NCBI GenBank assembly: GCA_015179125.1
Contig: WHVA01000137.1
Coordinates: forward strand, 167,797-231,796
DNA: 64,000 bases
Source of the DNA: Gautieria morchelliformis
Taxonomy: Eukaryota > Basidiomycota > Agaricomycetes > Gomphales > Gomphaceae
Direction of reading: 5' to 3'
A model generated the notes under the pieces. That model saw only the letters and a list, made by a program, of their open reading frames with translations. It did no database searches and was not told where the DNA came from. Position numbers and translations under genes: made by a program. Below, one piece after another: positions 8,689-30,440 of this stretch. The first letter of the stretch is position 1. Every line of letters starts with the position of its first letter.

Positions 8689-8902
8689 TGTAAATAACCC
8701 GTGTATCTACATGTACATTAGTTACTTACATAATCCCAGTGGGCCCCTTAGGGACCCACCGTATAGTTTATGCGTGGGAACCGGCCAGCGGTTCCCATCG
8801 CATCTTACCCTTACACTGTCACTACGTAGCATCAGAATACCACACATTGGTCAAGTTCTGTCGTGCTCTTGTGACCTGAGGATTAAGATAGATATCTTTA
8901 CA
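8689..8902 (+). repeat. 5' LTR of element B
   Basis: TGTAAATAACCC...ATCTTTACA, with inverted TGTAAA/TTTACA ends. Same length as the copy at 30455-30668 and nearly identical to it. Confidence 0.88.
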
Positions 8903-9018
8903 CCTTTTTGAACTATCCTGCGGTTGATCGCCACGTGACCAACCGATAGTGGATTCGAAGCAATCTTGAAAAAGATCGCTGCGTCGACGACTAAACATCG
9001 TTGAGACCCTCCAGTAGA

Positions 9019-9114
9019 CCCTTACACTGTCACTATGTAGCATCAGAATACCACACATTGGTCAAGTTCTGTCGTGCTCTTGTGACCTGAGGCTTAAGAT
9101 AGATATCTTTACAC
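9019..9114 (+). repeat. Duplicate of the 3' end of the B LTR in the leader
   Basis: About 95 bp starting ACCCTTACACTGTCACTA and ending ATATCTTTACAC repeat the last part of the 5' LTR (8808-8903). Unique sequence 8904-9018 separates the two copies. It lies immediately before the first ATG of B (9118), so the transcript leader carries an extra LTR-end copy. It may reflect template switching during reverse transcription. Confidence 0.75.
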
Positions 9115-9491: not shown

Positions 9492-9971
9492 TGTAAGGGC
9501 AACCCTGGCTAGTCGTGGAGATCACGCTACCACACAACTGACAAGGGGAAATCCAAAGTATGTATAAATGAACAGAGCATACAAGAGAGGGGGTTCTCAC
9601 CTGACAAGGGGAAATCCAAAGAGAAAAGTCTAAGGACCCCCAATGTCAGCGAGCCCGTATTATACTACGCTGCGCAGCCAGGGACAACACTTGGCACCCG
9701 CCATCAACCCTGCATCCCCCTGACCCTTGATCGACCCTTGATGCCACCTATTATGCGAGTCGCTTGATTTCCGACACTGTTCCGGGGCGGAAGTCGGAAA
9801 TTGGAGTGGAACTGGCAAGGCGAACGGAACTGGTGGAAGTTCTCCCAGAAGCGGAATTGTTCCCGAAAGCGGATGCGGAGATGGAATCGGAACCGGAAGC
9901 GGAGTCGGAAATGGAGTCGGAACTGGGTGTGGTGTCGGAACTGGAAATGGAAAACAGGGTGTCCCCTGACA
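9492..9971 (-). repeat. 3' LTR of C1
   Basis: 480 bp; plus-strand ends TGTAAGGGCAACC and TGTCCCCTGACA. It contains a stretch rich in GGAA/CGGAA that also encodes the C-terminal tail of pol on the minus strand, with the pol stop at 9751. A likely TATA element (TTTATACAT on minus) lies near 9560. Confidence 0.92.
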
Positions 9972-12900
9972 TCACCCCCCCTCTAGCGTGCTGCGTCCTC
10001 GAAGCACGGGACACAAGGGATTGAAATGCCAGCGAGCGGATTCGGCGAGGGGCACCTGGATGTGTCCTGTAGAACTCCCGGAGTTTGTCAGGAGCGGAAA
10101 CATCTTGCTCCGGGACCCACGAATTCTCCTCGTACCCATACCCTTCCCATTTCACGAGGAATTGGAGTCGTCCTCGCACAAACCGGCTGTCCAGGATCCG
10201 TTCTACCACGTAGTGCTCTTCCCCATCTACAATTTCTGGCGGAGGTGGCGGATGAGCCTTCCGACGTGGAATTGGGTCCTCAAGCATAGGGAGTAACTTC
10301 ACCACGTTGAAGACGGGGTGGAGGCGGGACATGGACATCGGAAGTCGGAGGCGGTATGCATTCCGTCCAACCCTCCGCGTCACCGTGAAGGGCCCAAGGT
10401 AGCGGTGGGCAAGCTTCTGCGAAGGGCGTGTGGTGCGGATGTCACTTGCATCTAGGTACACCTTGTCTCCAACTTGGTACTCTGGGGCAGGAACCCGGCG
10501 TCGGTTGTAGTACCTTGCCATGTCATCCTTGGCCTTCGCAAGGGCCGACTTGGCTTCCGAAAGGGTGGAGTCCATGCGGTCTCGGAACTCATTGACCGTC
10601 TCGAGTCGGGAGTCAGCCTGGCGTGGTTCGAAGCCCATCCGCGGGTGTCGTCCGGAGTCAAGCATGAAGGGAGTCTGTTGCGTGGCGGAATGGACATGGT
10701 TGTTGTATTGGAATTCCGCCAGCGGAAGTAACTCATCCCAGTCATCCTGCCTCTCATTGACAAAGAGGCGGAGATATTGCTCCAACTCCTGATTGACCCG
10801 TTCCGTCTGTCCGTCACCCTGCGGATGGTACGCTGTGGTGGTAGCCAGCTTTATGCCGAGCAGGCGGTAGAGCTCCCGAGTCAGTTCCGCGACAAACTGC
10901 GGACCTCGGTCGGAAACGACTTGCTTCGGGAGCCCATGCAACTTCCAGACATGTGCAAGGAACAGGCGGGCCGCTCCGAGGGCTGTGATCGTCGTGTGCG
11001 TCGGAATGAAGTGGGACACCTTGCTCACCGAATCCACGACGTTCATGATCGCGTCGTAGCCATGAGACTCTGGGAGTTCAACGATGAAGTCGACACTGAT
11101 GGTGTCCCAGCGGGATTCGGGAATCGGGAGCGGAACAAGTTCTCCGACGGGCGGACGTCGTTGCGCTTTGGTTCGGAGACAAAGGTCACACGTCTTCACG
11201 TACTGTCCGATGTAGCGGGACATCTGAGGCCACCAGTAATTCCGAGCCACTAACTCCAGCGTCTTCCACCTGCCAGCATGCCCAGCGACCCGTGTGTCAT
11301 GGTGCTGGGACACGATGCGACGGCGGAGGTCCGCCCCACCCGGAACATAGACCTTGCCTCTGAAGTGGAGCAGTCCATCACGTTCCGACCATTCCGCTGC
11401 CCGTACAGACCGTGAGTGCCCCTTCCGGAGTTCCTCCACTGCCTTCACCACCGACTCCTCCTTCTCTCCATTCCGGTACTGCCTCCGGATATCTCGGAGC
11501 ATTTCCGCTTCCGCCCCAACTGCAGTTACTCCTTCTAGGGCACGGATTGCAAAGAGACTTGGGCGGAGCAGTGTCATATCCGCGTTGTCTCCACTTCCGC
11601 TTCCGTGATCCGCGCGGCGGGATAGGGCATCGGGCTTGCCCATGGTGCGGCCGGGGCGGTGGTGGAGCATGAAGTCAAACCGGGACAGGTGTAGGGACCA
11701 CCGTGCTTGTCGTCGGTTCAGCTTCTTAGCCGTGCGGAAATACTCGAGGTTCTTGTGGTCTGTCCAGATCTCAAAAGGGCATAGAGCACCCTCGAGGAAG
11801 TGTCGCCACTCCTCCAGCGCTCGGATGATTGCCAGCATCTCCTTGTCATGGATCTCATAGTTCCGCTCGACCGGACTAAGGCTCTTAGAGAAGAAGGCAA
11901 TCGGATGCCACCCCCCACCATCTTCCGATGACTGCTGTGACAAGACCGCTCCGGTAGCTGCGTCGGAAGAATCCACCTCGACTCGATAAGGGCGAGAGTC
12001 GTCGGGAAAGATCAGGACCGGGGCGGAAGTGATCAGCTCCTTGAGTTTGTCAAAGGAAGTCTGTTCCGGCTCTCCCCACCGCCATCCAACCTCCTTCTTG
12101 GTGAGGTCGAAGAGGGCACGGGCGTGGCAGGAGAAGTCCTTGATGAACCGCCGGTAGAAATTGACAAACCCAATGAAGGACTGGACCTCCTTCTTGTTTC
12201 GCGGCACGGGCCAATCTGATACACCGGAAACTTTGACTGGGTCCATTTCCACCTTTCCTTCCGACACAATCACCCCAAGATACTCTATCCGCGTCCGCTC
12301 AAATTCGCACTTTTCCGGCTTGAGACACAGGTTGTACTCCCGGAGCCGTTCCAGCACTCTCCGCACGACTTCCCGATGTTCGGACATTGTTTTCGTGAAA
12401 ATGAGGATGTCATCGAGGTAGACGCAGACAACCCCTTCTGCTATCATGTCACGGAAAATGTCATTCATCATCGTCTGGAATGTGGCGGGACTGTTGGTGA
12501 GGCCAAAGAACATGACCTGTGGCTCAAAGAGTCCTCGATTGGTGCGGAATGCGGCCTTCCACTCGTCTCCCTCCCGGATCCGGACATTGTTGAAGCCCCA
12601 GCGGACATCCAGCTTAGTGAAGTACCTCGCCCCGCGGAGTTGTGTGATCAGTTCGGAAATGAGTGGAATGGGGTACCGGTTCTTGATCGTGATCGCATTC
12701 AAGGCCCGGTAGTCCTGCACAAGTCTGAGCGAGCCATCCTTCTTCTTGATGAAGAACACCGGAGATGCCATGGGTGACTTGGAGGGGAGGATCCTTCCTG
12801 TACGGAGGTTTTCCGCAAGGAACGCATCGAGCTCTACCTGCTCCTTGGGTGACAGCGGGTAGACCTTGCAGTTGGTGGGCTTTGACCCAGGCTCCAACTC

Positions 12901-13893
12901 GATGGCGTGGTCCCACAGCTTCCGTGGAGGCAGGGTATCAAACGACTCCTTGGAAAAGACGTCCTCGAACTCTCGCAGGTACTCCGGAATTTCCGCCTCT
13001 ACTCTATCATGCCTCTTGGAGGCTTCAGCAAGGCGTTGCGAAATATTTCCGGTGGCGCGGATGTGTTCCGCCTCCGGCGGAAGGTTTACGTACAGCAAGC
13101 GCTCCCCTTCCGCCAGGATGTCTTCCGGGTCGAGTCGGATGACGTCGGGATCGGAATCGGAATCGGAATCGGAAGTGGAATCCGATTCAAATTCCGCTTC
13201 CGAGTCTTCTTCTGCAAGCAGTGGATGGGGGCCAGAACGACATGTCTGTATGAGCCGTTCAGTCTTCCGCTGCTCCTGGCGCTCCTTCCGCAGTTCCGAC
13301 CTGCACATGTGACACTTGGCTGGACATCGACTCATCAGTACCTTCCGAGTCTGCCAATTGATCTCCGGGTTGTGCTCCTGAAGCCAGGTAAACCCGAGGA
13401 TGATGTCCTGCTTCCCCAGGCTGGTGACTGCAAAGGAAGTGCGTTCCGAGTGTCCATCGTAGCGGAGAATTGTGTCTACTATCTCCGTGATGGACCCTGC
13501 CTCATTGGGGCTTCCATCCACATTGAACACCGGGATTGCACGTTGCAACTTCCGCGTGGTCAGTCGGTTCCGTTCCACATAGTCCCGGTCCATAAACTGA
13601 CCAGTGGCCCCGCAATCGACAAGGGCGGGTCCGGATTTGACTTCCGCCGTATCTGTCGTCTGGATCTCCACCTTAATGACTAGTGACTTGGGGCCAGGGG
13701 TGGCAGCAACAACATAGCGCTTCGGAAGGCGTCTCTCCCAAGGGCGGATGCGGGATGGATGGGGTGTCAGATTTGGTTTTTGTGTGACTTTATCCGGTGG
13801 GTCTGTACGAAGTGAGGGGAGTGGGGGCTTTTCATTCTCTACTTCAAGACAGGCAAACCGGTTATGTACAGGCAGCAGGGGCACACATCTCAC
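9751..13893 (-). CDS. pol: C1 pol polyprotein (protease, RT, RNase H, integrase, chromodomain)
   Basis: The frame is open from at least the GTG at 13893, about 1380 codons. Visible domains: aspartic protease LVDCGATGQF (residues about 91-100); RT with LVQDYRALNA (391-400), MFFGLTNSPATFQ and catalytic YLDD (492-495); RNase H with VDSSDAATGA and TDHKNLEYF; integrase HHCC finger (HxxxxAGHAGxxKT, CDLCLRTK) and core (SVDFIVELPESHGY, VSDRGPQF, YHPQGDGQTERVNQ); linker YLGPFTVTRRV; chromodomain YVVERILDSRF, LVKWEGYGYEENSW. The last 70 or so residues are S/G/D-rich and encoded by the 3' LTR. There is no early ATG: pol lies in the -1 frame relative to gag and overlaps its end, so it is probably made as a gag-pol fusion. 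Chromodomains of this group bind modified histones and direct integration. Confidence 0.93.
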   Translation of the reverse strand: MRCVPLLPVHNRFACLEVENEKPPLPSLRTDPPDKVTQKPNLTPHPSRIRPWERRLPKRYVVAATPGPKSLVIKVEIQTTDTAEVKSGPALVDCGATGQFMDRDYVERNRLTTRKLQRAIPVFNVDGSPNEAGSITEIVDTILRYDGHSERTSFAVTSLGKQDIILGFTWLQEHNPEINWQTRKVLMSRCPAKCHMCRSELRKERQEQRKTERLIQTCRSGPHPLLAEEDSEAEFESDSTSDSDSDSDPDVIRLDPEDILAEGERLLYVNLPPEAEHIRATGNISQRLAEASKRHDRVEAEIPEYLREFEDVFSKESFDTLPPRKLWDHAIELEPGSKPTNCKVYPLSPKEQVELDAFLAENLRTGRILPSKSPMASPVFFIKKKDGSLRLVQDYRALNAITIKNRYPIPLISELITQLRGARYFTKLDVRWGFNNVRIREGDEWKAAFRTNRGLFEPQVMFFGLTNSPATFQTMMNDIFRDMIAEGVVCVYLDDILIFTKTMSEHREVVRRVLERLREYNLCLKPEKCEFERTRIEYLGVIVSEGKVEMDPVKVSGVSDWPVPRNKKEVQSFIGFVNFYRRFIKDFSCHARALFDLTKKEVGWRWGEPEQTSFDKLKELITSAPVLIFPDDSRPYRVEVDSSDAATGAVLSQQSSEDGGGWHPIAFFSKSLSPVERNYEIHDKEMLAIIRALEEWRHFLEGALCPFEIWTDHKNLEYFRTAKKLNRRQARWSLHLSRFDFMLHHRPGRTMGKPDALSRRADHGSGSGDNADMTLLRPSLFAIRALEGVTAVGAEAEMLRDIRRQYRNGEKEESVVKAVEELRKGHSRSVRAAEWSERDGLLHFRGKVYVPGGADLRRRIVSQHHDTRVAGHAGRWKTLELVARNYWWPQMSRYIGQYVKTCDLCLRTKAQRRPPVGELVPLPIPESRWDTISVDFIVELPESHGYDAIMNVVDSVSKVSHFIPTHTTITALGAARLFLAHVWKLHGLPKQVVSDRGPQFVAELTRELYRLLGIKLATTTAYHPQGDGQTERVNQELEQYLRLFVNERQDDWDELLPLAEFQYNNHVHSATQQTPFMLDSGRHPRMGFEPRQADSRLETVNEFRDRMDSTLSEAKSALAKAKDDMARYYNRRRVPAPEYQVGDKVYLDASDIRTTRPSQKLAHRYLGPFTVTRRVGRNAYRLRLPMSMSRLHPVFNVVKLLPMLEDPIPRRKAHPPPPPEIVDGEEHYVVERILDSRFVRGRLQFLVKWEGYGYEENSWVPEQDVSAPDKLREFYRTHPGAPRRIRSLAFQSLVSRASRTQHARGGVMSGDTLFSISSSDTTPSSDSISDSASGSDSISASAFGNNSASGRTSTSSVRLASSTPISDFRPGTVSEIKRLA

Positions 13894-15065
13894 CCGCTGC
13901 GTGTCACAAAATCCGATGCATCTTCCGCTTCCGGTAGACCATGTTCCGCATTTTCGGAAAGCACTTCCGCAGTGGGCACTCCATTTATGTCTGCAAGCGC
14001 GAGGAACTCTGGAAGGATCTCGAGTTTCTCCTCTGTGGTCATAAGCCGGATATCAAAGGCTTGGGGGCACTCGCGAGCGTAGTGGCCTGGTTGTCGGCAG
14101 CGGAAGCAGGTGATAGTTCCGTGGCCTTTTCCGCGCATGCGGTCAACATCCATCGGGGCAGGGCCACTCTTCGAGGGAGGAGGGCTATGGTTCCTAATAG
14201 GAGCAGGCGGAGCAAGCATCGGAAATAATTTCCGTGTGGGAATGAATGCGCTTCCGGGTTTTGGCACAGGTGGAGTAGGACGAGTGGAACTGCGTGTCAT
14301 GTTCCGGCTCGTCTCCACAAAGGCCTCATTTGCCTCCCTGTTCCGAGAAACCTTCTGCGCAGCTTGGTACCACCCTTCCGGGTCATCAAAATCCGGAGCT
14401 CCATCCCCAAGCAGCGCAACTTGGTTCTGGAGCGTCGGATCGAGTCCTCGTCGGAATTTGATGACGATCGTCTTGTCGTCGTCATATTCCGCAAGGTCGA
14501 TGAGCTCCTGGAAGCGATCGATGTAGTCATCGACCGGATCTTTGGCCTGGTACCAGCTCGTCCCCTCGAGCTTTGTAAGGGCTGTGAGCTGCTCGTTTTT
14601 CGGGCAGAACTGGTCGGAAAATGTTTTCTCGAACACGTCCCAGTCCCGGAAGTAGTTCCCCTTGCCCTTTGCTTCATGTCGGATCACCTTGTTTGCAAAA
14701 CGGGCTGCGCGGTCCGATTTGAAAAAGGACAACGTCCAGTGAATCCGAGCCTGGTCGTTCGGAAAGAGGTCTCCGACAATTGCGAAGTAGATGCTGCATG
14801 TATTGAAGAATGCGCGTCCCTTCTCCCGATCTCCGTCAAAGTCCGCCGGAGTTGCGGGTTTGACCTTTGCTAACTTCGCGGACATCCTCTTTTCCGCTAG
14901 TTCCGCTTTTCCGAAATCCGGATCATCCAGCATTTCATTTCCACCACCTTGTGGAATATCTAACTTAGCCAAAATCGCTTGTAAGGCTGTTTCAATCGCG
15001 TCGGTCTTCATCCGGTTCCGCGTCAATTCCTCTTCCATATTCCGAAGACGATCGTCCGGATCCAT
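13890..15065 (-). CDS. gag: C1 gag (capsid and zinc knuckle)
   Basis: First in-frame ATG at 15065 (MDPDDRLRNMEEELTRNRMK), giving about 391 residues to TGA 13890-13892. The capsid region includes PATPADFDGDREKGRAFFNT and DKTIVIKFRRGLDPTLQNQV. A CCHC zinc knuckle CFRCRQPGHYAREC lies near 14070-14115, preceded by GPAPMDVDR. Gag forms the virus-like particle in the cytoplasm and binds the element RNA. The reading frame upstream of 15065 is open to 15263 but lacks an ATG. The stop TGA is overlapped by the pol frame. Confidence 0.9.
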   Translation of the reverse strand: MDPDDRLRNMEEELTRNRMKTDAIETALQAILAKLDIPQGGGNEMLDDPDFGKAELAEKRMSAKLAKVKPATPADFDGDREKGRAFFNTCSIYFAIVGDLFPNDQARIHWTLSFFKSDRAARFANKVIRHEAKGKGNYFRDWDVFEKTFSDQFCPKNEQLTALTKLEGTSWYQAKDPVDDYIDRFQELIDLAEYDDDKTIVIKFRRGLDPTLQNQVALLGDGAPDFDDPEGWYQAAQKVSRNREANEAFVETSRNMTRSSTRPTPPVPKPGSAFIPTRKLFPMLAPPAPIRNHSPPPSKSGPAPMDVDRMRGKGHGTITCFRCRQPGHYARECPQAFDIRLMTTEEKLEILPEFLALADINGVPTAEVLSENAEHGLPEAEDASDFVTRSG

Positions 15066-15252
15066 GTTGGAAGGAGAAATATAGGACGGGATTTCCGGGG
15101 TTGGGAGCTCGACGTAAGAAGAGGGGCTGTCGTACGCTGTATGTGCGGAAGAGGTTGCGATCTCCGAGTCGCTGTCTCCGATTCCGAACGCACCTATGGC
15201 GAATGCAACGCGCAGTACGACCGCCGGTCCTCTAGGGGAGAGACTTTTCTGC

Positions 15253-15732
15253 TGTAAGGGCAACCCTGGCTAGTCGTGGAGATCACGCTACCACACAACT
15301 GACAAGGGGAAATCCAAAGTATGTATAAATGAACAGAGCATACAAGAGAGGGGGTTCTCACCTGACAAGGGGAAATCCAAAGAGAAAAGTCTAAGGACCC
15401 CCAATGTCAGCGAGCCCGTATTATACTACGCTGCGCAGCCAGGGACAACACTTGGCACCCGCCATCAACCCTGCATCCCCCTGACCCTTGATCGACCCTT
15501 GATGCCACCTATTATGCGAGTCGCTTGATTTCCGACACTGTTCCGGGGCGGAAGTCGGAAATTGGAGTGGAACTGGCAAGGCGAACGGAACTGGTGGAAG
15601 TTCTCCCAGAAGCGGAATTGTTCCCGAAAGCGGATGCGGAGATGGAATCGGAACCGGAAGCGGAGTCGGAAATGGAGTCGGAACTGGGTGTGGTGTCGGA
15701 ACTGGAAATGGAAAACAGGGTGTCCCCTGACA
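15253..15732 (-). repeat. 5' LTR of C1
   Basis: 480 bp copy matching 9492-9971; I found no difference by eye. Its outer end (15732) is followed by ATGAT, the second half of the target duplication. Confidence 0.92.
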
Positions 15733-20938: not shown

Positions 20939-21530
20939 CCCGTCAACGTCCACAACGCGAACAACGGCCCCGAGACAATGGGCCGCTGACATTCTCCGTG
21001 CTCCGATAGACAAGGAGCACTGGATGATCGTGGGATGGGAGGACGCCCTCGTCATCGTCCACCTGGATGATTGCGCAACGTGTGTGGACTACGCCGCGCA
21101 CCTTAGGGCCGCGACCGGCACCCGCAAGGTCAAGTTGCGGGATGAAGACATCAGCGACACCGTCGATGCAGCTTGGGGATGGCTCCCAAGGGGCATCGCA
21201 CGTGACGCGCGAGAAGAGCCCCTCCGGGACGTCCACGACCTCAAAAAAGAGGTCAAGGAGCTAGAACGCGCGGTCGAGGACCGCGACGATGCGCTCGTAA
21301 CCGAGCACGCCAGGATCAAGGAACTGGAGCAGCAGCTGAGTGCAGCCCAGCTCCAGGTTACCCTGGTCCACGCTGCCTCAAAAAGGCCGCGACATGACCC
21401 GGCCACGGACCCAGTGGCCGGGCCATCTTCACCTCACGCAACGGCGCCGTTGCCGGCGTGCGCAACCTCGGGGCTAGCGTCCCGATTGTCGGCGCCGACT
21501 CCGACCACGACAACGACGGAAGGGCAGAGC

Positions 21531-22091
21531 TGTTACGATACGATCCGTCGTAAGGTTGACCGAGGTCGGGAACGAAACCCGAGGCAAGGTCCGAGGTTAC
21601 GGGGCGAGGTTTGGATGGGGAAGTCGGAGAGGGACTTGGCTTCAGCTTATGTGCTGCGCCGACCCTACGCACGAGTCCCAATTTCGGAGGTAAATGAATA
21701 AGAGGCGAGGTTCTGGCTTAAGAGGCGAGGCGTAGAAACTAGCTAGGGATCGAAGGGACACGATAGTTGATTTTCAGACTGAGGAGTAGGAATGCATACA
21801 AGGGGGTTATATACGGACGAGGTGCAAGTCAGGGGCGAACGGATTAGTGGAGGTCAGGGCGAGGTCAGGAGACCGAGGTCAGGGCGAGGTAATATACGAA
21901 TGATGCGTGATGGAGCGGAATCAGTAACTAAGGGGATACGGGCATGGGATCAAGGTCGGATATGAGTTCAAGCTCGGGATCGGGCTCGGGCACGGATAAG
22001 TATCATATGTACTCGGGCATGAATATCACAAGGCTCGGGCTCGGAAGAAGGTTCTACCGGTAAGTAGCCGGCCAAAGGCCGGGTCCTTACA
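21531..22091 (-). repeat. 3' LTR of C2
   Basis: 561 bp; plus-strand ends TGTTACGATACG and GGTCCTTACA. On the minus strand a TATATAA promoter box lies at about 21807-21814. The equivalent in the 5' LTR is near 28770, where it would drive gag-pol. Confidence 0.92.
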
Positions 22092-22104
22092 GTATTCCCC
22101 CCTC
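22092..22104 (-). other. Polypurine tract of C2
   Basis: Minus strand GAGGGGGGAATAC immediately before the 3' LTR start TGTAAGGACC. Confidence 0.75.
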
Positions 22105-22263
22105 ATGGCCGAGACCCTCGAGGCCGTAATGTGAACAGGGTTCGCCTATCCTTGAATCTAGATCTCGGTCCGATGTTAAGTAGCCGGAAAGGCGAAGCTT
22201 AAATCGTAGCCGAGGTTGGATAAAAGGGTGGGTAGGAGGCAGCGAACCCCATTGCCAACTAAT

Positions 22264-23404
22264 ATGGTGCGCCCTCAAGCCCTCTTCAGCTCAGCCGTCG
22301 ACGAGAACAGCGTGAACAACGCGTTCGACCAGACTTTGTTGTCTGAGGAGAACGGAGCCTCAGGCGAGGTTACGCCCGAGGATCGACCCGAGGTTGGCAC
22401 ATTGCCAATTGATGAGACGGGGGCCATCGACATGCGGCAGCCGTGGCAGGAAGGACCGAGTGGAAAGAAGGTGAGTACCGTAGTCGTCTAATAATGGGCG
22501 CTGCTGATTTGTCTAGTATAAACGCATGTTATTCTCCTACCACCCGACCGACTTGTCCCTATACGGGTACAAGCTCGCCGACGGGGGACCTCGCGAGTGG
22601 CAGCTCGCGACCAAGGCCGAGGCGAGGTGCGCGCGCTGCGAAGAGCGCGACTATACGTGCCTTCGGGCCGTTAGTCTCGACTTCGGCCTCGCCGACCAGG
22701 GTGCTTGCGTGTGGTGCAGGACCCGTTCCTTGGGTTGTAGTATCGCCCAAGGTCGCCGCAGCAAGGCAACCCCAGGCAAGGGTCAGGCGGGTACCGCGAG
22801 TAAGAAGCGAGCGAGGAGCGAGGAGGCCGAGGATGGACCGAGGCCGAGGAAAGAGGCCAAGGTTCAGGACGAAGTTGCAGAGGACGACGACTCGAGTGAT
22901 TGGGTCGAGAGGAACCTCGAGATGAGGGTAGAGCGGATGGAAGCGAGGTTGAGCGAGGAGAAGGGTAAGGAGACTGGGGAAGTGAGGCAGCGTGAGGAGA
23001 CAGAGGTCGGGGAAGCGAGGCAGACTGAGGGGGAGGAAACCGAGGTTGGAGGTCGGAGGGCGAAAAAGGACAAGAAGACGAAAAGATCGGAGCGAAGTGC
23101 GGAGATGAGGGAGTTGATAGCGGCGGTGAGGGATGTGGGACAGAAGGTTGGCGAGGTTGGGGAGAGGGTGTGCGAGTTGCTAGGGGAGTTTAGGGCTGCG
23201 AATGACAGGATGAGCAGGGCGGACGTGGAGTTCATGAGGATAAGGAGGAGGCGGAATTATTTGAAGCGGATGCAGGGGGCGAGAGACTTGGCGGATTATG
23301 GGGGACATGGGGGTCTGGTGGAGCGAAGTAGTAGCAGTAATGAGGAGGAGTCAGGCGAGGGGAGCGAGGAGAGCGAGGGAGAGGATATGAGGATGGTGGA
23401 ATAA
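22264..23404 (+). CDS. Antisense accessory gene of C2: putative Zn2Cys6-like DNA-binding protein
   Basis: Plus-strand gene between the 3' LTR and the end of pol. Start ATG 22264 (MVRPQALFSSAVDENSVNN), with A at -3 and G at +4 and a TATA-like GATAAAAG about 40 bp upstream. Exon 1 22264-22470, intron 22471-22516 (GTGAGT...GTCTAG), exon 2 to TAA 23404; about 364 residues. Six cysteines at residues about 107-143 read C-x2-C-x6-C-x15-C-x2-C-x6-C (CARCEERDYTC ... CVWCRTRSLGC). That is the fungal binuclear zinc cluster spacing with a somewhat long central loop. A nuclear-signal-like basic patch (KKRARSEE, PRPRKEAKV), a Glu/Arg-rich coiled-coil region and an acidic Ser/Glu tail follow. The intact frame and spliceable intron argue for function. 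It could regulate the element or host genes; that is inference. Confidence 0.7.
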
Positions 23405-23507
23405 CTAGTAAATGGAATAATAGACTTTTCTTGGATTTTATCGATTTTGTTTTGAAGGGTTTTTGTCATCTAACTACCGGGGTCATGGGGATTAACAGGG
23501 AAAACGA

Positions 23508-26500
23508 TCATAGAGCAGTCAAGGGGCCGGGCTTGCCCGGGTAAGAGTCATGGAATTCCGTGACCAGCTCCGAGGCATGATCAAGCTCGGAAGCGAGGAT
23601 CCACGAGGTTTCTTCGTCGGTACCTTCGTAACCAGTCCACCTAACAAGGTAGAGTAATTTGCAGCTCTTGCGCCTATTATCGATCTTCGAGTCGAGGATT
23701 TCGGAAACCTCGAACTCGGGTTCGCCGTCGATAACGACTGGGGGCGGAGGCGGCTGAACTCGGTTTGGTATGGTGTTGGGCGAGGCTGGTTCGAGCATAG
23801 ATACGTGGAAGACCGGATGGACTGAATGCATGTGTTCTGGAAGTCGAAGGGTGAAGGAGTGAGTACCCGCTCGGGAAATGATTTCAAAAGGACCCAAGAA
23901 CTTCTCGGCGAGCTTCTTGGTAGGCCGAGTTGTTCGAAAGTACTGTGCCTTTACAAAAGCGAGGGATCCTACTTGGAAATCAGGAGCGGGCTTGCGACGA
24001 ACATCGGCCGAGGCTTGGTAAGTTTTCTGAGCCTCGAGGATGGCGTGGCGAAGTTCTTGGTGAAGCTCGTCCAGGTCAATCACGAAGTCTCGGGCTCGTG
24101 CCGAGGCGAGGTCGCGCTCGGGGTGAACTGCGAGGTTCGGATGGTAGCCTTTATTGGCAAAGAATGGGGAGACGCCGGTGGTTGCGCTCGGCGCGTTGTT
24201 GTAGGCGAACTTGGCTAGGGGAAGGAGCGAAGCCCAATTGGACTGCTGATAGTTGCAATAGATCCTGAGGTACTGTTCCAAAGTTTGGTTAGCACGCTCG
24301 GTCTGACCGTCACCCTCGGGATGATATCCCGAGGTGAAATGCAACCGCATGTCCAAAGCTTTCCCTAGGGAACGCCAGAAGTGCGAAACAAACTCGGAAC
24401 CCCTGTCCGAGGTGACGTGCGAGGGGACTCCATGCTTTGAAAAGACATGAAGAACGAAGAGGTGAGCGAGCTCCTGCGAGGTTATCTTGTCTGTGGTTGG
24501 AATGAAGATAACCTGCTTAGTGAAGCGGTCAACAATCATTAGGATGGAGGTGAACTCGGATGAAGGGGGGAGTTGCTCAATGAAATCCATAGAGATGGAA
24601 TTCCAAGGTTTCTCGGGAACAGGAAGTTGCTTGAGGAGACCATAGGGTTTGTGACGTTGCGGCTTGCTTCGCATACAAGTGGTACACGTCTTGCAATACT
24701 CCTTGACAAAGGATCTAATCCCTGGCCAAGTATAGTCTCGTCGGATCAGCTCCAAGGTCTTGTTGACCCCGAAGTGTCCCGAGAGAATGTGATCGTGCTT
24801 GTATTGCAGGATGCGAAGTCGAAGGTCTTGGGCCGCTGGAACATAGGTTCGGTTGTCAAGTTTGAGAAATCCCTCGGGGTCTGTGGTCCACCTCGGGTCA
24901 TTAACCAAGCCGAGGTGCGACTTGGCTATGGGGTCCGAGGGGAGGTTTGCTAGTATGTCAGCTCGGATCTGCTCGGTATCAAGCAGTGAAGCGGCTCGGA
25001 GTACGATGGGAGCGAGGTTAGTGGCTCTAAGGGACGATGCCAGCTGGTGCTGAGTAAACACTGGCCGTAGGTTCTGCGGGTTTATGGTGGCATAGTCGCT
25101 ATTCCCCTCTTTAAGGTAGACGTCCCATCGTCTGGTGAGAGAGTCAGGCTTCGTTCCGAGGCGACCAGGTCGGAAGCGTATGGCGAGGTTGAACTGGGAA
25201 AGGTATTCCGACCACCGAGCTTGACGACGGGTCAAGAGCTTCGTAGTTGAAAAGTATTCGAGGTTCTTGTGATCGGTGATAACGTCAACTGGTTCGCCTG
25301 AGCCCTCTAGGTAGTGTCGCCAGCGTTGAAAGGCTTCAAAAATGGCGAGGAGCTCCTTGTCGTGAACATCGTAGTTGAGCTCGGTAGAGGTGAATGTGCG
25401 GGAGTGGAAAGCGACGGGATGAAGTTCGCCTTCCGAGGTTCGTAGTGATAAGATTGCCGCTAAGGCATAATCTGATGCATCAGTCTCTACGATCAGTGGA
25501 AGGTCAGGAATCCAGTGAGTAAGGATAGGGGCGGTAGTGAACGCCCTCTTCAACAGGTTGAAAGCCCGTCGACAATCCTCGGAAAAATTCCAAGGGGTAC
25601 CCTTGCGGGTAAGTCGGGTGAGAGGAATGGTGATGTCGGAGTAGTTGTGAATGAAACGTCGGTAGAAGTTGGCGAAGCCGAGGAAGGATTGGATGTCGCG
25701 AACTTTGCGAGGTTCAGGCCAGTCTTGAATGACCTTTACTTTGTCATCTGCCATAGTGAGGCCCTCGGGAGAGAGTATGTAGCCGAGGAATTCAACCGAG
25801 TCGCGATGGAACTCGCATTTGTCTTCTTTGGCGAAGAGGTTGTTGAGTCGTAGTCGTCGCAAGACTTCCTTGACATGTTCAACATGTTTGGAGGGGTCAC
25901 TGGAGTAGATTAGAATGTCATCCAAGTATACCACCACACAAACGTCCAAAAGGTCGGCGAACACCTCGTTCATGAATCTCTGGAAGGCAGCAGGGCCATT
26001 AGTGAGACCAAATGGCATGACCAACCATTCGAACGACCCATAGCGAGTCCTGAAGGCGGTCTTCCATTCGTCACCCTCGGCCACCCGTACGAGGTGGTAA
26101 GCGTGACGAAGGTCAATTTTCGTATAGATGCGAGCATTCTTTGGAGCATCAAGTAAGTCAGCAATCAATGGCAATGGATACCGATCTTTTTTTGAGATTT
26201 TGTTCAAACCTCGGAAGTCGACACACAACCGAAGTGAGCCATCTTTTTTGCGAACGAACAATACCGGTGCACCATGAGGCGAGCGTGAAGGTCGGATGAA
26301 ACCGATGTTTAAATGCTCGTCGATGAACTCGCGTAGTGCTTTGAGTTCGGAAGCTGAGAGAGAGTAGATGGGACCGATAGGTGGCGAGGTCCCTTCTTCG
26401 AGGTTGATTTTGATATCGTGAGGTCGGTGGGGAGCTAGAGTGTCAGCGCGTGCTTTGCTGAACACATCTGCAAATTCGTGATATACTTCAGGAACATGTT

Positions 26501-27226
26501 TCTTAACGTTCTCAGGAAGCTCGGAAGAGCTTCCTCCCGATGTTGCCCCTCTGGCGAGGAGCTCAGGCGAAGCCAAATTGAGCTGAAACACTTCGGACCC
26601 TTCCAATCTAGATGCGCGCATGAAAGCGGGTGCATTGATTAGGGAAACGAGGGGTGCTTGCAACTTCGGAAGCGAGGTCGGAGGCGGGGGCGAAGATGCC
26701 GTAGGCGAGGTCGAAGTCGTAGCCGAAGCTGAGCGGGCTGACGTCGCCGGGGTCGCTGGAGTCGTTGTTAGGTCGATGGTCTTGAAAGTAATACTGCCCA
26801 ATACCCAGTCAATCGACGGATTGTAGCGGGTGAGCCAGTTGTGGCCAAGTACCATCGAGCAACTTGAGTCGAGCGAGGTTACGTAGAAGGTAACCCATTG
26901 TTGTTCGCCGGTCGGAAAGCAAATGCAGAGGTCTAGAGCTTGGGTAATGGTAGTGTTAGTACTACCGTCAAATAGTTTCAAGGGTATAGGAGAGACAGGA
27001 TAAGCAGGCATGGAGTACTTCTGGACAAATCTGGATTCAATAAAACAGTCTGAGGACCCGCAGTCAACTAATGCAACAAAAGCGACGTTGGGCAGCGAAG
27101 GCGAGGTTAGATCTACATTAAGGGAATCTTTGGACAATGAATGAGAAGCGGCGCTGAGTCTGAGCACACGGGTGAGGTTACCGCAATCCTCGGATCGTGT
27201 GGTTCCGAGGTTGCTACCTATTTTTT
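23508..27226 (-). CDS. pol: C2 pol polyprotein (protease, RT, RNase H, integrase, chromodomain)
   Basis: The pol frame has no ATG before the protease and stays open upstream through the gag stop, in the -1 frame, so a gag-pol fusion is expected. Counting from 27167: protease VDCGSSDCF (34-42); RT LCVDFRGLNKIS (314-325), MPFGLTNGPAAFQ and catalytic YLDD (414-417); RNase H VETDASDYAL (about 540) and TDHKNLEYF; integrase finger HDHILSGHFGVNKT...CTTCMRSK (about 815-860); core SMDFIEQLPPSSEF, TSDRGSEF, YHPEGDGQTERANQ; linker FLGPFEIISRAG; chromodomain EVSEILDSKID, LYLVRWTGYEGTDEETSW (about 1140-1205). 1219 codons from 27167 to the stop at 23508. Strongly Tf2/chromovirus-like. Confidence 0.93.
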
Positions 27227-27229
27227 CAC
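27218..27229 (-). other. Probable -1 ribosomal frameshift site between C2 gag and pol
   Basis: Gag ends GTG AAA AAA TAG. The run of A before the stop allows paired tRNAs on AAA AAA to slip back one base. The pol frame is exactly -1 and open across this point (reading ...GAA AAA ATA GGT AGC). No second in-frame start is available for pol, which supports the frameshift. Confidence 0.6.
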
Positions 27230-28450
27230 CTCCGTAATGGAGGCTGAAGTCCCCTCGTTAGGGGTCTTCGTTGCCCGACCTTTAGAACCGCTACTATTGG
27301 TAGACTTGTTCTTCGGGCAGTCCTTGACGACGTGACCTTTGGTGCCGCAAAGCAGACAAAGTCCTTGGTCGACCCGGCGTTGGCGCTCCTCGGGAAGCAG
27401 TTTGCCATCCTTTCCGAGTTTGCTCGAAATGTTGGGCTGGCTCTTGTTGTTCGAAGAGTTGTTGTCGTTGGAACCCTTGCCGCTGTTGTTAGTCTTGTTG
27501 CGGTTCTTATTGTTATTGGAACCACTGGAAGACTGGTGGTTGTTAGTGGCATTGCTACTGGACTGATTAGTGGTGCGTGCAGGCTGGGAGCTACGACCAT
27601 TGATCATGGCGTCGTATTCCTTTCGCTCCCAGTAACGGCTATCGCATTCCAGCGCGAAGTTCCTAAGCTCGGCGAGGCTGCGGAATCGAGGGAAGTGAAG
27701 TAAGTCGTCCTTGATCCGTTTGGCCAAGCCCTTGTAGGCAAAGTGTCGGAGGGCCGCGTCGTTCCACTGAGTCCGAGTCGAAGCTCGGGCGAAATCGATA
27801 AAGAATCGCGCGGCCTTGTGGTGCTCTTTCATAACGATCTTCTCGAGGTCAATCTCGGCTTGGGCCGCGTTGTCGTATGGGCCGAAGTTAAGCTCGAGCT
27901 CGGCCTTGAAGCTGTCCCAGTCCTCGAGCCAATCTGGCTCGGGTTGGACTTCGCCGAGGATCGCCGGCTCGAAATATTGCAGAGCCGAGCCGGACAGGTA
28001 AGAAATAGCATACTGCACCTTTGAGGCCCCAGTCTTGAACGCGGTGGGGCGATCTCTGAAGTTGAGTACACATTGAAGGAAGAAAGTGCGAAGCTTGGCT
28101 TGGTCAGTACCGTCATAACTATCCGGTTCCTTGACCTTGGCTCGTGCTTCGGATTCGCGAGGTTTCGCGAGTTTGATGAACACTCGACGCATAAGCTCGT
28201 TGTCCTCGAGGTCACCGAGGTCCTCGGGCGGAAGGTTGGGGAGGTCCCGATCGTTGTCAGAACTTCTAGAGCCATCACCTGGATCACCTGGAGGGTCACC
28301 GAGGTTAGCCCTACCTTTGCCTTTGTTACTAGGCTCGGCGGGGTCTGCGAGGGGTATCCCCGGGGACGGGGGTGAATCATCGGGGGCTTCCGAGAAACGT
28401 CGCTGTTCTGAGATACCCCGAAGGGTGCGAGAACGAGTTATCATGGACAT
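27218..28450 (-). CDS. gag: C2 gag (capsid and zinc knuckle)
   Basis: ATG 28450 (MSMITRSRTLRGISEQRRFS), 410 residues, stop TAG 27218-27220. The N-terminal third is Pro/Asp-rich; the capsid domain includes VKEPDSYDGTDQAKLRTFF and WEDWDSFKAEL-type segments (here WLEDWDSFKAELELNFGPYD). An Asn/Ser-rich linker precedes a CCHC knuckle CLLCGTKGHVVKDC near residue 370. It lies directly inside the 5' LTR, 43 bp from its edge. Packages element RNA in cytoplasmic particles. Confidence 0.92.
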   Translation of the reverse strand: MSMITRSRTLRGISEQRRFSEAPDDSPPSPGIPLADPAEPSNKGKGRANLGDPPGDPGDGSRSSDNDRDLPNLPPEDLGDLEDNELMRRVFIKLAKPRESEARAKVKEPDSYDGTDQAKLRTFFLQCVLNFRDRPTAFKTGASKVQYAISYLSGSALQYFEPAILGEVQPEPDWLEDWDSFKAELELNFGPYDNAAQAEIDLEKIVMKEHHKAARFFIDFARASTRTQWNDAALRHFAYKGLAKRIKDDLLHFPRFRSLAELRNFALECDSRYWERKEYDAMINGRSSQPARTTNQSSSNATNNHQSSSGSNNNKNRNKTNNSGKGSNDNNSSNNKSQPNISSKLGKDGKLLPEERQRRVDQGLCLLCGTKGHVVKDCPKNKSTNSSGSKGRATKTPNEGTSASITEVKK

Positions 28451-28493
28451 CGTGAAAAAAGGGATACGTAGGGTGTAAGCAGTCTGAAAATAC

Positions 28494-29054
28494 TGTTACG
28501 ATACGATCCGTCGTAAGGTTGACCGAGGTCGGGAACGAAACCCGAGGCAAGGTCCGAGGTTACGGGGCGAGGTTTGGATGGGGAAGTCGGAGAGGGACTT
28601 GGCTTCAGCTTATGTGCTGCGCCGACCCTACGCACGAGTCCCAATTTCGGAGGTAAACGAATAAGAGGCGAGGTTCTGGCTTAAGAGGCGAGGCGTAGAA
28701 ACTAGCTAGGGATCGAAGGGACACGATAGTTGATTTTCAGACTGAGGAGTAGGAATGCATACAAGGGGGTTATATACGGACGAGGTGCAAGTCAGGGGCG
28801 AACGGATTAGTGGAGGTCAGGGCGAGGTCAGGAGACCGAGGTCAGGGCGAGGTAATATACGAATGATGCGTGATGGAGCGGAATCAGTAACTAAGGGGAT
28901 ACGGGCATGGGATCAAGGTCGGATATGAGTTCAAGCTCGGGATCGGGCTCGGGCACGGATAAGTATCATATGTACTCGGGCATGAATATCACAAGGCTCG
29001 GGCTCGGAAGAAGGTTCTACCGGTAAGTAGCCGGCCAAAGGCCGGGTCCTTACA
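28494..29054 (-). repeat. 5' LTR of C2
   Basis: 561 bp partner of 21531-22091, followed by the duplicated target AGAGC. Drives gag-pol transcription leftwards; TATA-like box near 28770. Confidence 0.92.
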
Positions 29055-30440
29055 AGAGCGCACCTTCCGACTCTGCGTATGGTGTCCCAGATGGATGGGA
29101 GCCCGACTCGTCCGTCTGGAAGACGTACGACCCTGAATGGGCACAGCGGCTGGCAGAGCAGCCAAAGAAAAAGCGCAAGAAATTGCGCGGCTCCCTCCAC
29201 ACCGTCAATGGGCTAGCCATTGCGAAGGAAAGCGCAATCAGCGCTTACCTAGCAGCGTCATCCTCGCACACCATCAACGACCCCACCCTTCAGCGGCGGG
29301 TCGCACAGGTCGAGGCCCAGTACATTGGGCCTGGCGTGGCCCTACCTCCACCGGCGGGGACAGTTCACCCTCCCTACCCGGGGGAGGGACTGATCATCCC
29401 ACTGAGAGATCCACCGATCTCCGAGACGGGCCTCCTACCACGACCAGTAGGAAAGGCCCAACAGCATCGTACTCAATGGTACGACGCCTGCCCGCTCGAC
29501 GACCCACGCTTCGTCGAACTCATAGCGCGGGCAAAAGAAACGCCGCAGCTCGCGTGTACGCGCGAGATGATCGGCGTATTCAAACACATCAAGCGCGAAC
29601 AACGCGCTCGCAATCCCAAAAGGGATTGTCTCGTGATAGCGGGCGGTACCCCGCACGACATCGCGGCCATTCTAAAGGGTTGGATACACAACCCTGAAGG
29701 AATCCCCTCCGCCATCCATGACAACGCGGATGGCACCTTCAACCTAGACCACATGGATGTCTGGATGTGGTTGAAGGCCCTTGCGCCCCGGGTCAAAGGG
29801 GTCGCATCACCGCTCAGGGCGAGACTACTCGACCTCTTCGGCTTGACGGACCAATGGTCGAGCCTCGTCGACGCCAGGGAAGTGCTGACGCCTCAGAGCA
29901 CCACCCTGCGGCTCTCAATCATGGGCCCATTCCCTGTGGAGGGCTGAGCCGGCCCTGACATCTCACTCGCGGAGATCGCGAGATGGTTGGCCCGCTACGC
30001 GGGAGTCACTCGCGAGCGAGCGGCGCGCATTGAACATTACGTTCAGCGCAGCATCACCGGCGCGGCATTCAGCGCCGCCGCCCGTGAGGGCCAACAAAAG
30101 GTCATCGAGACCAGCCATGTGAGGGCCGCGGTGCCACTACCCCTCACTCATGCTCAGCTCGACCAAGAGCTGGCGCGCTTCCGGCCCCCTCCTCAAACGG
30201 AGGACCCGGCCGTTGAGGCCATGCTCCGTGAGGACATGGGCCCCAGCACCCAAGCGGAGACCACCGCTAGTGGTGAGGCCGACCAGCCTCACCCAATCAC
30301 CACCGATGACGCGGAGGTGCCCCCGGAGGAGTCACGTGCTCCTCTGGCCCAATACGACGACGATGACGACGTATTGGCCACTCTAGAGGACTCCCTCATG
30401 GACGACCTCTATGAGTAGTAGTTAACCCCTATAGTTATCT

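Follow-up and report, generated by a model that had tools for sequence, protein, structure and literature searches.

An apparently spliced antisense gene with a zinc-cluster-like domain in a Gautieria chromovirus, a candidate regulator of its own element

A class of genes located between pol and the 3' LTR, in antisense orientation to gag-pol, has been described from plants, and the Boty element of Botrytis also has such a gene (PMC7264820). Grande, RIRE2, Retand and the brtn gene of Boty are members of this class, and the statement of the initial annotation that no described family was known for a gene of the kind analysed here thus has to be corrected (PMC7264820). The function of such antisense aORFs was reported as not known, and, as far as the text of that review goes, no clear protein similarities are described apart from the SMC domain in PvRetro13 and the transposase 28 domain in Retand (PMC7264820). 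The antisense gene of Grande is credited there, partly through the title of a cited reference, with its own promoter and a nuclear product (PMC7264820). In the main text of the review the words 'intron' and 'zinc' occur 0 times each, and no cysteine cluster is named in it (PMC7264820). Further ORFs of rotifer elements have been treated elsewhere (PMC5408684).

A regulatory role of an antisense gene product has been described for retroviruses. HBZ of HTLV-1 and APH-2 of HTLV-2 are encoded by a spliced antisense transcript from the 3' side, and both inhibit Tax-driven transcription from the LTR (PMC3185765).

Element C2 and its antisense gene

The window, as we call the whole 64,000-nucleotide stretch of Gautieria morchelliformis DNA that was analysed, carries C2, a minus-strand chromovirus at positions 21531-29054. 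Its pol ORF (23508-27254, minus strand) contains the Pfam domains RT, RNase H, integrase, SH3_Tf2-1 and Chromo, in the RT-RNase H-integrase-chromodomain order of Ty3/gypsy chromoviruses, and the label given to the element at the outset is correct. The gag ORF (27218-28492, minus strand) matches Retrotrans_gag, with CCHC_2 under its cutoff. Comparison of the LTR pair placed the 3' LTR at 21531-22091 and the 5' LTR at 28494-29054, both in minus orientation (in the computations the stretch 21532-22089 was used, 1-2 bases short per end). As the two LTRs differ by a single mismatch and the element is flanked outside by the target-site duplication AGAGC, the sequence suggests that C2 is a young insertion. 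An Rfam scan of 21400-29200 gave no match.

A second chromovirus, C1, lies on the minus strand at 9492-15732, with two identical LTR stretches of 480 bp each (9492-9971 and 15253-15732). It was considered as a carrier of an antisense gene and rejected: the C1 pol ORF ends within its own 3' LTR, and therefore there is no room for such a gene. Near C1, at 8807-9114, there are two 97-bp direct repeats, 98% alike, whose starts are 211 bp apart.

The antisense gene of C2 occupies positions 22264-23404 of the plus strand, in the stretch which separates pol from the 3' LTR. Exon 1 (22264-22470; 207 nt, codons 1-69) encodes the acidic N-terminus and is followed by an intron of 46 bp (22471-22516), which begins with GTGAGT, ends with CTAG and contains a branch-point-like CTGAT/CTGAC; exon 2 (22517-23404; 888 nt including the stop) comprises codons 70-364. 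The spliced product would be 364 amino acids long, and the unspliced frame runs into stops within the intron. These coordinates agree exactly with the gene proposed from the sequence at the outset, a 364-codon plus-strand gene with a 46 bp intron between pol and the 3' LTR, and the start context, then called good, reads AATATGG at the ATG.

That the intron is canonical, as also proposed, is borne out by other copies of the gene. GT..AG is kept in 67 of 68 retrieved copies, the remaining one having AT..AG, and intron length varies little (46 bp in 58 copies, 48 in five, 47 in four and 44 in one). A CTGAY branch-like motif is present in all 14 representatives shown while the body of the intron diverges; nine old copies and L001 differ by 25.1% over the intron. 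Splicing of the antisense gene may thus be assumed on the basis of these conserved signals. An intron spliced out of genomic RNA should disappear during retroelement replication. This one would escape such loss, because the genomic RNA is of the opposite strand and the intron is present only in the antisense transcript. Intron-less retro-copies, which could serve as genomic proof of splicing, were not seen: all 40 scored DNA matches (the best of 286 candidates) span the intron, and one 27-base pattern of the intron-less junction had 0 matches in the genome at up to two mismatches. This outcome proves neither side.

Copies of the gene and coding constraint

In the genome searched (122 Mb, 1113 contigs) at least 139 protein matches to exon 2 were found, which merge into 133 places; the count is a lower bound, with 133 of 567 candidates scored. 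Stop-free rows number 107 among the 139, some of the rows being partial pieces. In the DNA search of the same genome the best 40 of 352 first-look candidates were scored. Of 130 pol ends (131 rows were listed, and a 46-residue second piece at C340 was omitted), 89 are accompanied by a gene on the opposite strand at a distance of 107-315 bp, when the 139 exon-2 rows and 36 further rows are used for this count. A sample of ten from the other 41 pol ends revealed the gene or its remnant in all ten cases, none with a full-length intact frame; two of these ten loci, L078 and L079, have an open frame devoid of the cysteine cluster. The antisense gene thus appears to be a standing part of the family, which decays in damaged or older copies.

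After removal of the intron, 47 of 68 distinct copies retain at least 340 codons, a biased rate, as the copies were chosen either by score (60) or by their open frame (8); L044 and L048, both within this set, are cut by contig ends. The old copy L086, whose exons are 65% and 64% identical, has one stop, yet it retains the splice sites and the six cysteines, and all its exon gaps are multiples of three. L078 (C404) and L079 (C182) share an in-frame 210-bp deletion of the whole cysteine cluster, with the rest of the frame open. In L087 (C352) a frame-breaking deletion of 227 bp has the same start, and C58 matched a junction query for the 210-bp deletion (match only). A common second form of the protein without the cysteine cluster was considered and rejected, the in-frame deletion being shared by the two copies C404 and C182 and the frame of C352 being broken.

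Constraint on the reading frame was estimated by the pairwise Nei-Gojobori method. The pooled dN/dS of 46 distinct intact sequences is 0.21, a value in which shared branches are counted repeatedly and which refers to intact copies only. A comparison of dN/dS across C2 copies had been put forward as a check of the gene, and the claim survived it, with values of 0.18-0.32 in every dS band. Along the protein, dN/dS amounts to 0.31 in residues 1-69, 0.118 in residues 70-105, 0.121 in the cysteine domain, 0.28 in the basic stretch, 0.22 in the linker, 0.123 in the helix and 0.25 in the tail; purifying selection is thus strongest in residues 70-105, the cysteine domain and the helix. As a control, the last 300 pol codons of 33 of the same copies gave 0.098, compared with 0.216 for the antisense gene; the gene is therefore constrained, although less than pol.

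The constraint is specific to the proposed frame. When 40 intact copies were compared, exon 2 had a dN/dS of 0.16 in its own frame, and the five alternative frames gave 0.31, 1.13, 1.30, 2.35 and 2.52; the respective values of exon 1 are 0.34 and 0.66-0.94. The lack of stops in these 40 copies is by construction, because they were picked as intact. The minus-strand frame with the value of 0.31 shares third positions with the frame of the gene and is stop-free across exon 2 in 0 of 40 copies. Two minus-strand ORFs, 22559-23179 and 22671-23189, are open in 35 and 34 of the 40 copies, respectively; a sense env-like gene in this place was rejected, as these ORFs fall, by arithmetic assignment, in the frames with dN/dS of 2.35 and 1.30. 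A chance ORF was likewise rejected, since place, frame and splice sites are conserved across copies. The antisense gene is almost certainly a real, element-borne, protein-coding gene.

One could assume that the antisense RNA alone is of importance, by forming dsRNA with the sense transcript, and that its coding capacity is fortuitous. An overlap of both transcripts would be expected, and dsRNA formation was raised as a possibility for plant elements (PMC7264820). On the other hand, the frame-specific dN/dS of 0.16 in exon 2, the L086 exon gaps in threes and the conservation of cysteines and splice sites already disfavour such an explanation, which we consider very improbable.

Searches with the full protein, a 13-row profile and the cysteine region revealed no homologue outside Gautieria; they require shared words of five residues, and 8000 candidates were scored in the profile search, so distant relatives may have escaped detection. 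No match was present in viral contigs, and no host gene of this kind was present among the genome matches listed, which were filled by copies of C2. The only public protein match, P0001, is itself a Gautieria morchelliformis protein. It matches C170:55238-56349 in three pieces (94, 92 and 98%), and its gene model fuses another, repeated sequence to the C-terminal part of the antisense gene. The finding of no relative outside Gautieria would fit a fragment of a host gene that one element picked up and carried along passively. The gene is nevertheless present from near-identical copies to those with about 64% amino acid identity, beside the pol end, and a passive form is contradicted by dN/dS; an origin of this kind without further role seems extremely unlikely.

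Predicted protein, leader and possible roles

The antisense protein has a predicted mass of 40.8 kDa and a pI of 5.2, and consists, in order, of an acidic N-terminus, a cysteine cluster, a basic stretch, an acidic linker, a heptad-patterned helix and an acidic tail. The six-cysteine, Zn2Cys6-like cluster C-x2-C-x6-C-x15-C-x2-C-x6-C (22628-22738, plus strand) lies at residues 107-143, and the exact motif occurs in 45 of 46 distinct intact proteins, with phenylalanine replacing one cysteine in the other. The basic stretch (22742-22879, plus strand; residues 145-190) has 12 K+R and 7 D+E and may act as a nuclear localisation signal, and the acidic tail (23300-23401, plus strand) covers residues 331-364. 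The cysteine spacing, basic patch and acidic tail are as initially claimed.

The name Zn2Cys6-type, given at the same time, holds for one part and fails for another. The six-cysteine pattern of the family (PF00172) is present, but the Zn_clus profile matches the two halves of the motif separately and gives the isolated cysteine domain E-values of 0.035-0.08 and 13.5-14.7 bits, under the Pfam cutoff of 21. In GAL4-class Zn2Cys6 proteins the central loop comprises about 5-12 residues, and the loop between the second and third cysteine is basic. Here the central loop has 15 residues and the latter loop reads EERDYT. The protein therefore resembles Zn2Cys6 proteins in its sequence but fails the tests of family score and loop length. 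A zinc-binding fold of the cysteine domain is nonetheless fairly likely.

The full-length protein had no match in Pfam, and 13 exon-2 members gave scattered matches, with E-values of 0.036 or worse; neither a nucleocapsid knuckle nor bZIP was found in either, a heptad pattern standing by itself. In the candidate coiled coil (23096-23224, plus strand; residues 263-305) 10 of about 12 a/d places are hydrophobic, which was reached in 0 of 10000 shuffles of a segment picked by eye. AlphaFold2, run with 13 close sequences, gave a mean pLDDT of 49 and was confident for the long helix only (83-91 over most of its length); the cysteine region remained below 50, with no confident fold. The best match of a PDB search had an E-value of 1.4, which indicates no relative.

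The leader between the LTR and the ATG (22092-22263, plus strand) is a candidate antisense promoter and 5' UTR. It contains a TATA-like box, GATAAAA (22219-22225, plus strand), 45 bp before the ATG. In 66 of 68 copies this word stands 44-46 bp upstream of the ATG; of the two exceptions, one has GAAAAAA and the other, in which the ATG pattern is missing, was left unscored. It is also present in four of five further copies, the fifth having GGTAAAA. Among nine old copies and L001, the leader at 22169-22263 is the most conserved stretch, with differences of 3.05%, compared with 5.3% at the pol end, 10.5% for the gap that follows the gene and 25.1% for the intron.

Within the 3' LTR, TATATAA (21813-21807, minus strand) is likely to be the sense TATA box. 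A cluster of TCGG words in U3 (21972-22045, plus strand), which all have the same direction and are in several cases spaced by 6 bp, provides candidate binding sites for the six-cysteine protein. CTCGGG was observed 4 times against 0.23 expected (first-order model, 0/5000), the word being picked after looking. The cluster may be compositional, because CGG words are found along the whole C2 element and the word was chosen afterwards.

The antisense gene probably encodes a functional protein with a controlling or supporting role for the element. That this protein is a nuclear regulator of the element's own transcription has, judging from sequence features, close to an even chance of being true. 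According to such a mechanism, the gene would be transcribed from the conserved leader with its TATA-like box, and the intron would be removed from the antisense transcript only and so persist through every replication cycle. The protein would enter the nucleus via the basic stretch and pair through the coiled coil, and its zinc-cluster-like domain would bind DNA, possibly at the repeated TCGG words in U3, this binding setting the level of sense transcription. In its best version the mechanism would involve a dimer acting on its own LTR. By analogy with HBZ of HTLV-1, we think that restraint of the LTR would be likelier than activation. The frame-specific purifying selection, the conservation of the six cysteines, the splice signals, the leader, the heptad helix and the U3 TCGG cluster are consistent with a regulator; the Zn_clus score under cutoff, the EERDYT loop, the unconfident AlphaFold2 model of the cysteine region and the lack of a PDB relative argue against it.

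Alternatively, the product might be a cofactor of retrotransposition, i.e. a nuclear protein which escorts the pre-integration complex or binds the RNA or DNA of the element through its cysteine cluster. Such roles were suggested for plant antisense aORF proteins, and position and orientation are the same as those of Grande gene23, whose product is nuclear (PMC7264820). In favour of a cofactor, the gene is also kept with its element, at 89 of 130 pol ends, with a gene or remnant at all ten sampled of the other 41. However, a reading on the opposite strand, apparently from its own leader, would suit regulation better than packaging, and the Pfam searches of the whole protein and 13 exon-2 members gave no nucleocapsid knuckle. 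We regard a cofactor as rather unlikely, although it is, beside a counter-silencing protein, one of the two main rivals of the regulator.

Whichever the direction of its effect, a regulator of this type would be accessible to experiment. The C2 gene offers a recognisable layout of zinc-cluster-like domain, basic stretch, coiled coil and acidic tail, an intron safe from splicing of the genomic RNA, a candidate promoter and more than 100 natural copies in one genome; therefore, whether an antisense protein controls its LTR could be answered by a reporter assay.

Mosaic structure and comparison with known systems

The antisense gene is also mosaic, a feature that the initial annotation did not mention. 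In 33 copies the synonymous distance is 0.156 for the gene and 0.052 for pol, and the distances of the two correlate at 0.44 only. Mean pairwise divergence in a young set (46 of 60 projected copies, with the pol end within 2.6% of that of the window) amounts to 1.35% for the LTR (21721-22089), 1.4% and 0.8% for the two parts of the leader and 1.04% for pol. The gene has 5.9% for exon 1, 10.2% for the intron and 2.9, 6.0 and 2.0% for successive parts of exon 2, and the gap has 4.5%. The low pol value is partly due to this selection, the low LTR and leader values are not. Copies at C478, C768, C304, C784 and C356 carry another version of the gene, although their gag and RT are 99% identical to those of the window (taken from the best 40 of 375 and the best 40 of 907 candidates, respectively).

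Single-breakpoint tests of L001 against L053 peak at 22289 and 23050 (0/1000 permutations each); L041, L046 and L051 gave 0/1000, and L025 gave 1/1000 and 188/1000. The contrast with old copies weighs more than these tests, because permutations ignore unequal constraint along the element. Ratios of young to old divergence were calculated in 100-bp bins from ten representatives, one per gene version, a choice which raises the values of the gene, unlike the means of 46 copies. In LTR, leader and pol bins the ratio is 0.16-0.56, apart from a value of 1.11 in the final pol bin. The bins of 22332-22531 have 0.58-0.89 and those of 22832-23031 have 0.93-1.01, whereas the values for the cysteine domain (22632-22731) and for the helix (23132-23331) are 0.16-0.20. 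In 28 pairs of eight versions, the two variable segments have dS of 0.24 and 0.39 with dN/dS of 0.18 and 0.20, residues 70-105 have dS of 0.24 with dN of 0, and the cysteine domain has dS of 0.07 with dN/dS of 0.04. From these sequence comparisons we conclude that recombination brought older gene segments into young elements without disturbing the frame. Selection may favour this exchange, or template switching and the repeats contained in the linker may suffice. Positive selection on the protein is disfavoured as its cause, since most of the excess is found at synonymous sites and in the intron (dN/dS of 0.18-0.20 in the two variable segments).

The mosaic bears on another proposal, that the protein counters host silencing of the element by RNAi or methylation. 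Many near-identical copies of the element exist, and an excess which is mostly synonymous and intronic is what small-RNA escape at the nucleotide level would leave. This pattern, however, supports silencing pressure and not a role of this protein in silencing; recombination alone can produce a mosaic, and no Pfam domain above chance was found. We consider counter-silencing by the protein improbable.

For the protein as regulator of its own LTR, the same comparison is unfavourable. By region, no LTR segment was seen to travel with a gene allele, and the regulator is slightly weakened as an explanation, because a protein matched to its LTR might show such joint transmission. A more speculative form, to which we would give a small chance, is that the antisense gene is an exchangeable regulatory cassette whose versions are swapped by template switching, letting a new element escape control by residents. 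Near-identical gag, pol and LTRs would then carry long-diverged versions of the gene, with the excess centred on the second half of exon 1 and the intron and on the linker before the coiled coil, and with the zinc-cluster-like domain and the helix staying nearly uniform. Just as a phage evades the repressor of another immunity group, a new element could evade trans-repression by the resident protein, or small RNAs from the sense/antisense overlap. The mosaic thus provides a natural experiment on why elements exchange the antisense gene.

Among known systems, the plant aORF-3R genes (maize Grande gene23, rice RIRE2, Silene Retand, PvRetro13) are the closest. The C2 gene shares with them its position between pol and the 3' LTR, its orientation antisense to gag-pol and its retention in most copies of the family, here with coding conservation, which places it among aORF-3R genes. 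The Grande gene has its own promoter and a nuclear product; in C2 the conserved GATAAAA leader is a candidate promoter. It differs from these plant genes, compared by description, in its intron signals and cysteine cluster. Boty of Botrytis cinerea, likewise a gypsy-type element of a fungus, carries brtn as an extra antisense gene (PMC8365987, PMC7264820); unlike C2 it is an ascomycete element, and brtn is likened by description only.

HBZ, in contrast to APH-2, belongs to the bZIP proteins, and its transcript starts inside the 3' LTR (PMC3185765). The C2 protein has no match to bZIP and the conserved TATA-like box of its gene is situated outside the LTR, so the analogy is one of mechanism only. 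With GAL4-class Zn2Cys6 factors (PF00172) the protein shares C-x2-C-x6-C twice, a basic stretch, a coiled coil and an acidic region; it differs from them in its 15-residue loop, the acidic first half, a score under the cutoff and no other Pfam domain. Among the papers surfaced in the open-access literature, some judged by title alone, none showed a fungal element whose antisense gene encodes a zinc cluster. As far as these searches reach, the apparently spliced, zinc-cluster-like antisense gene of a basidiomycete chromovirus, and its mosaic, are new.
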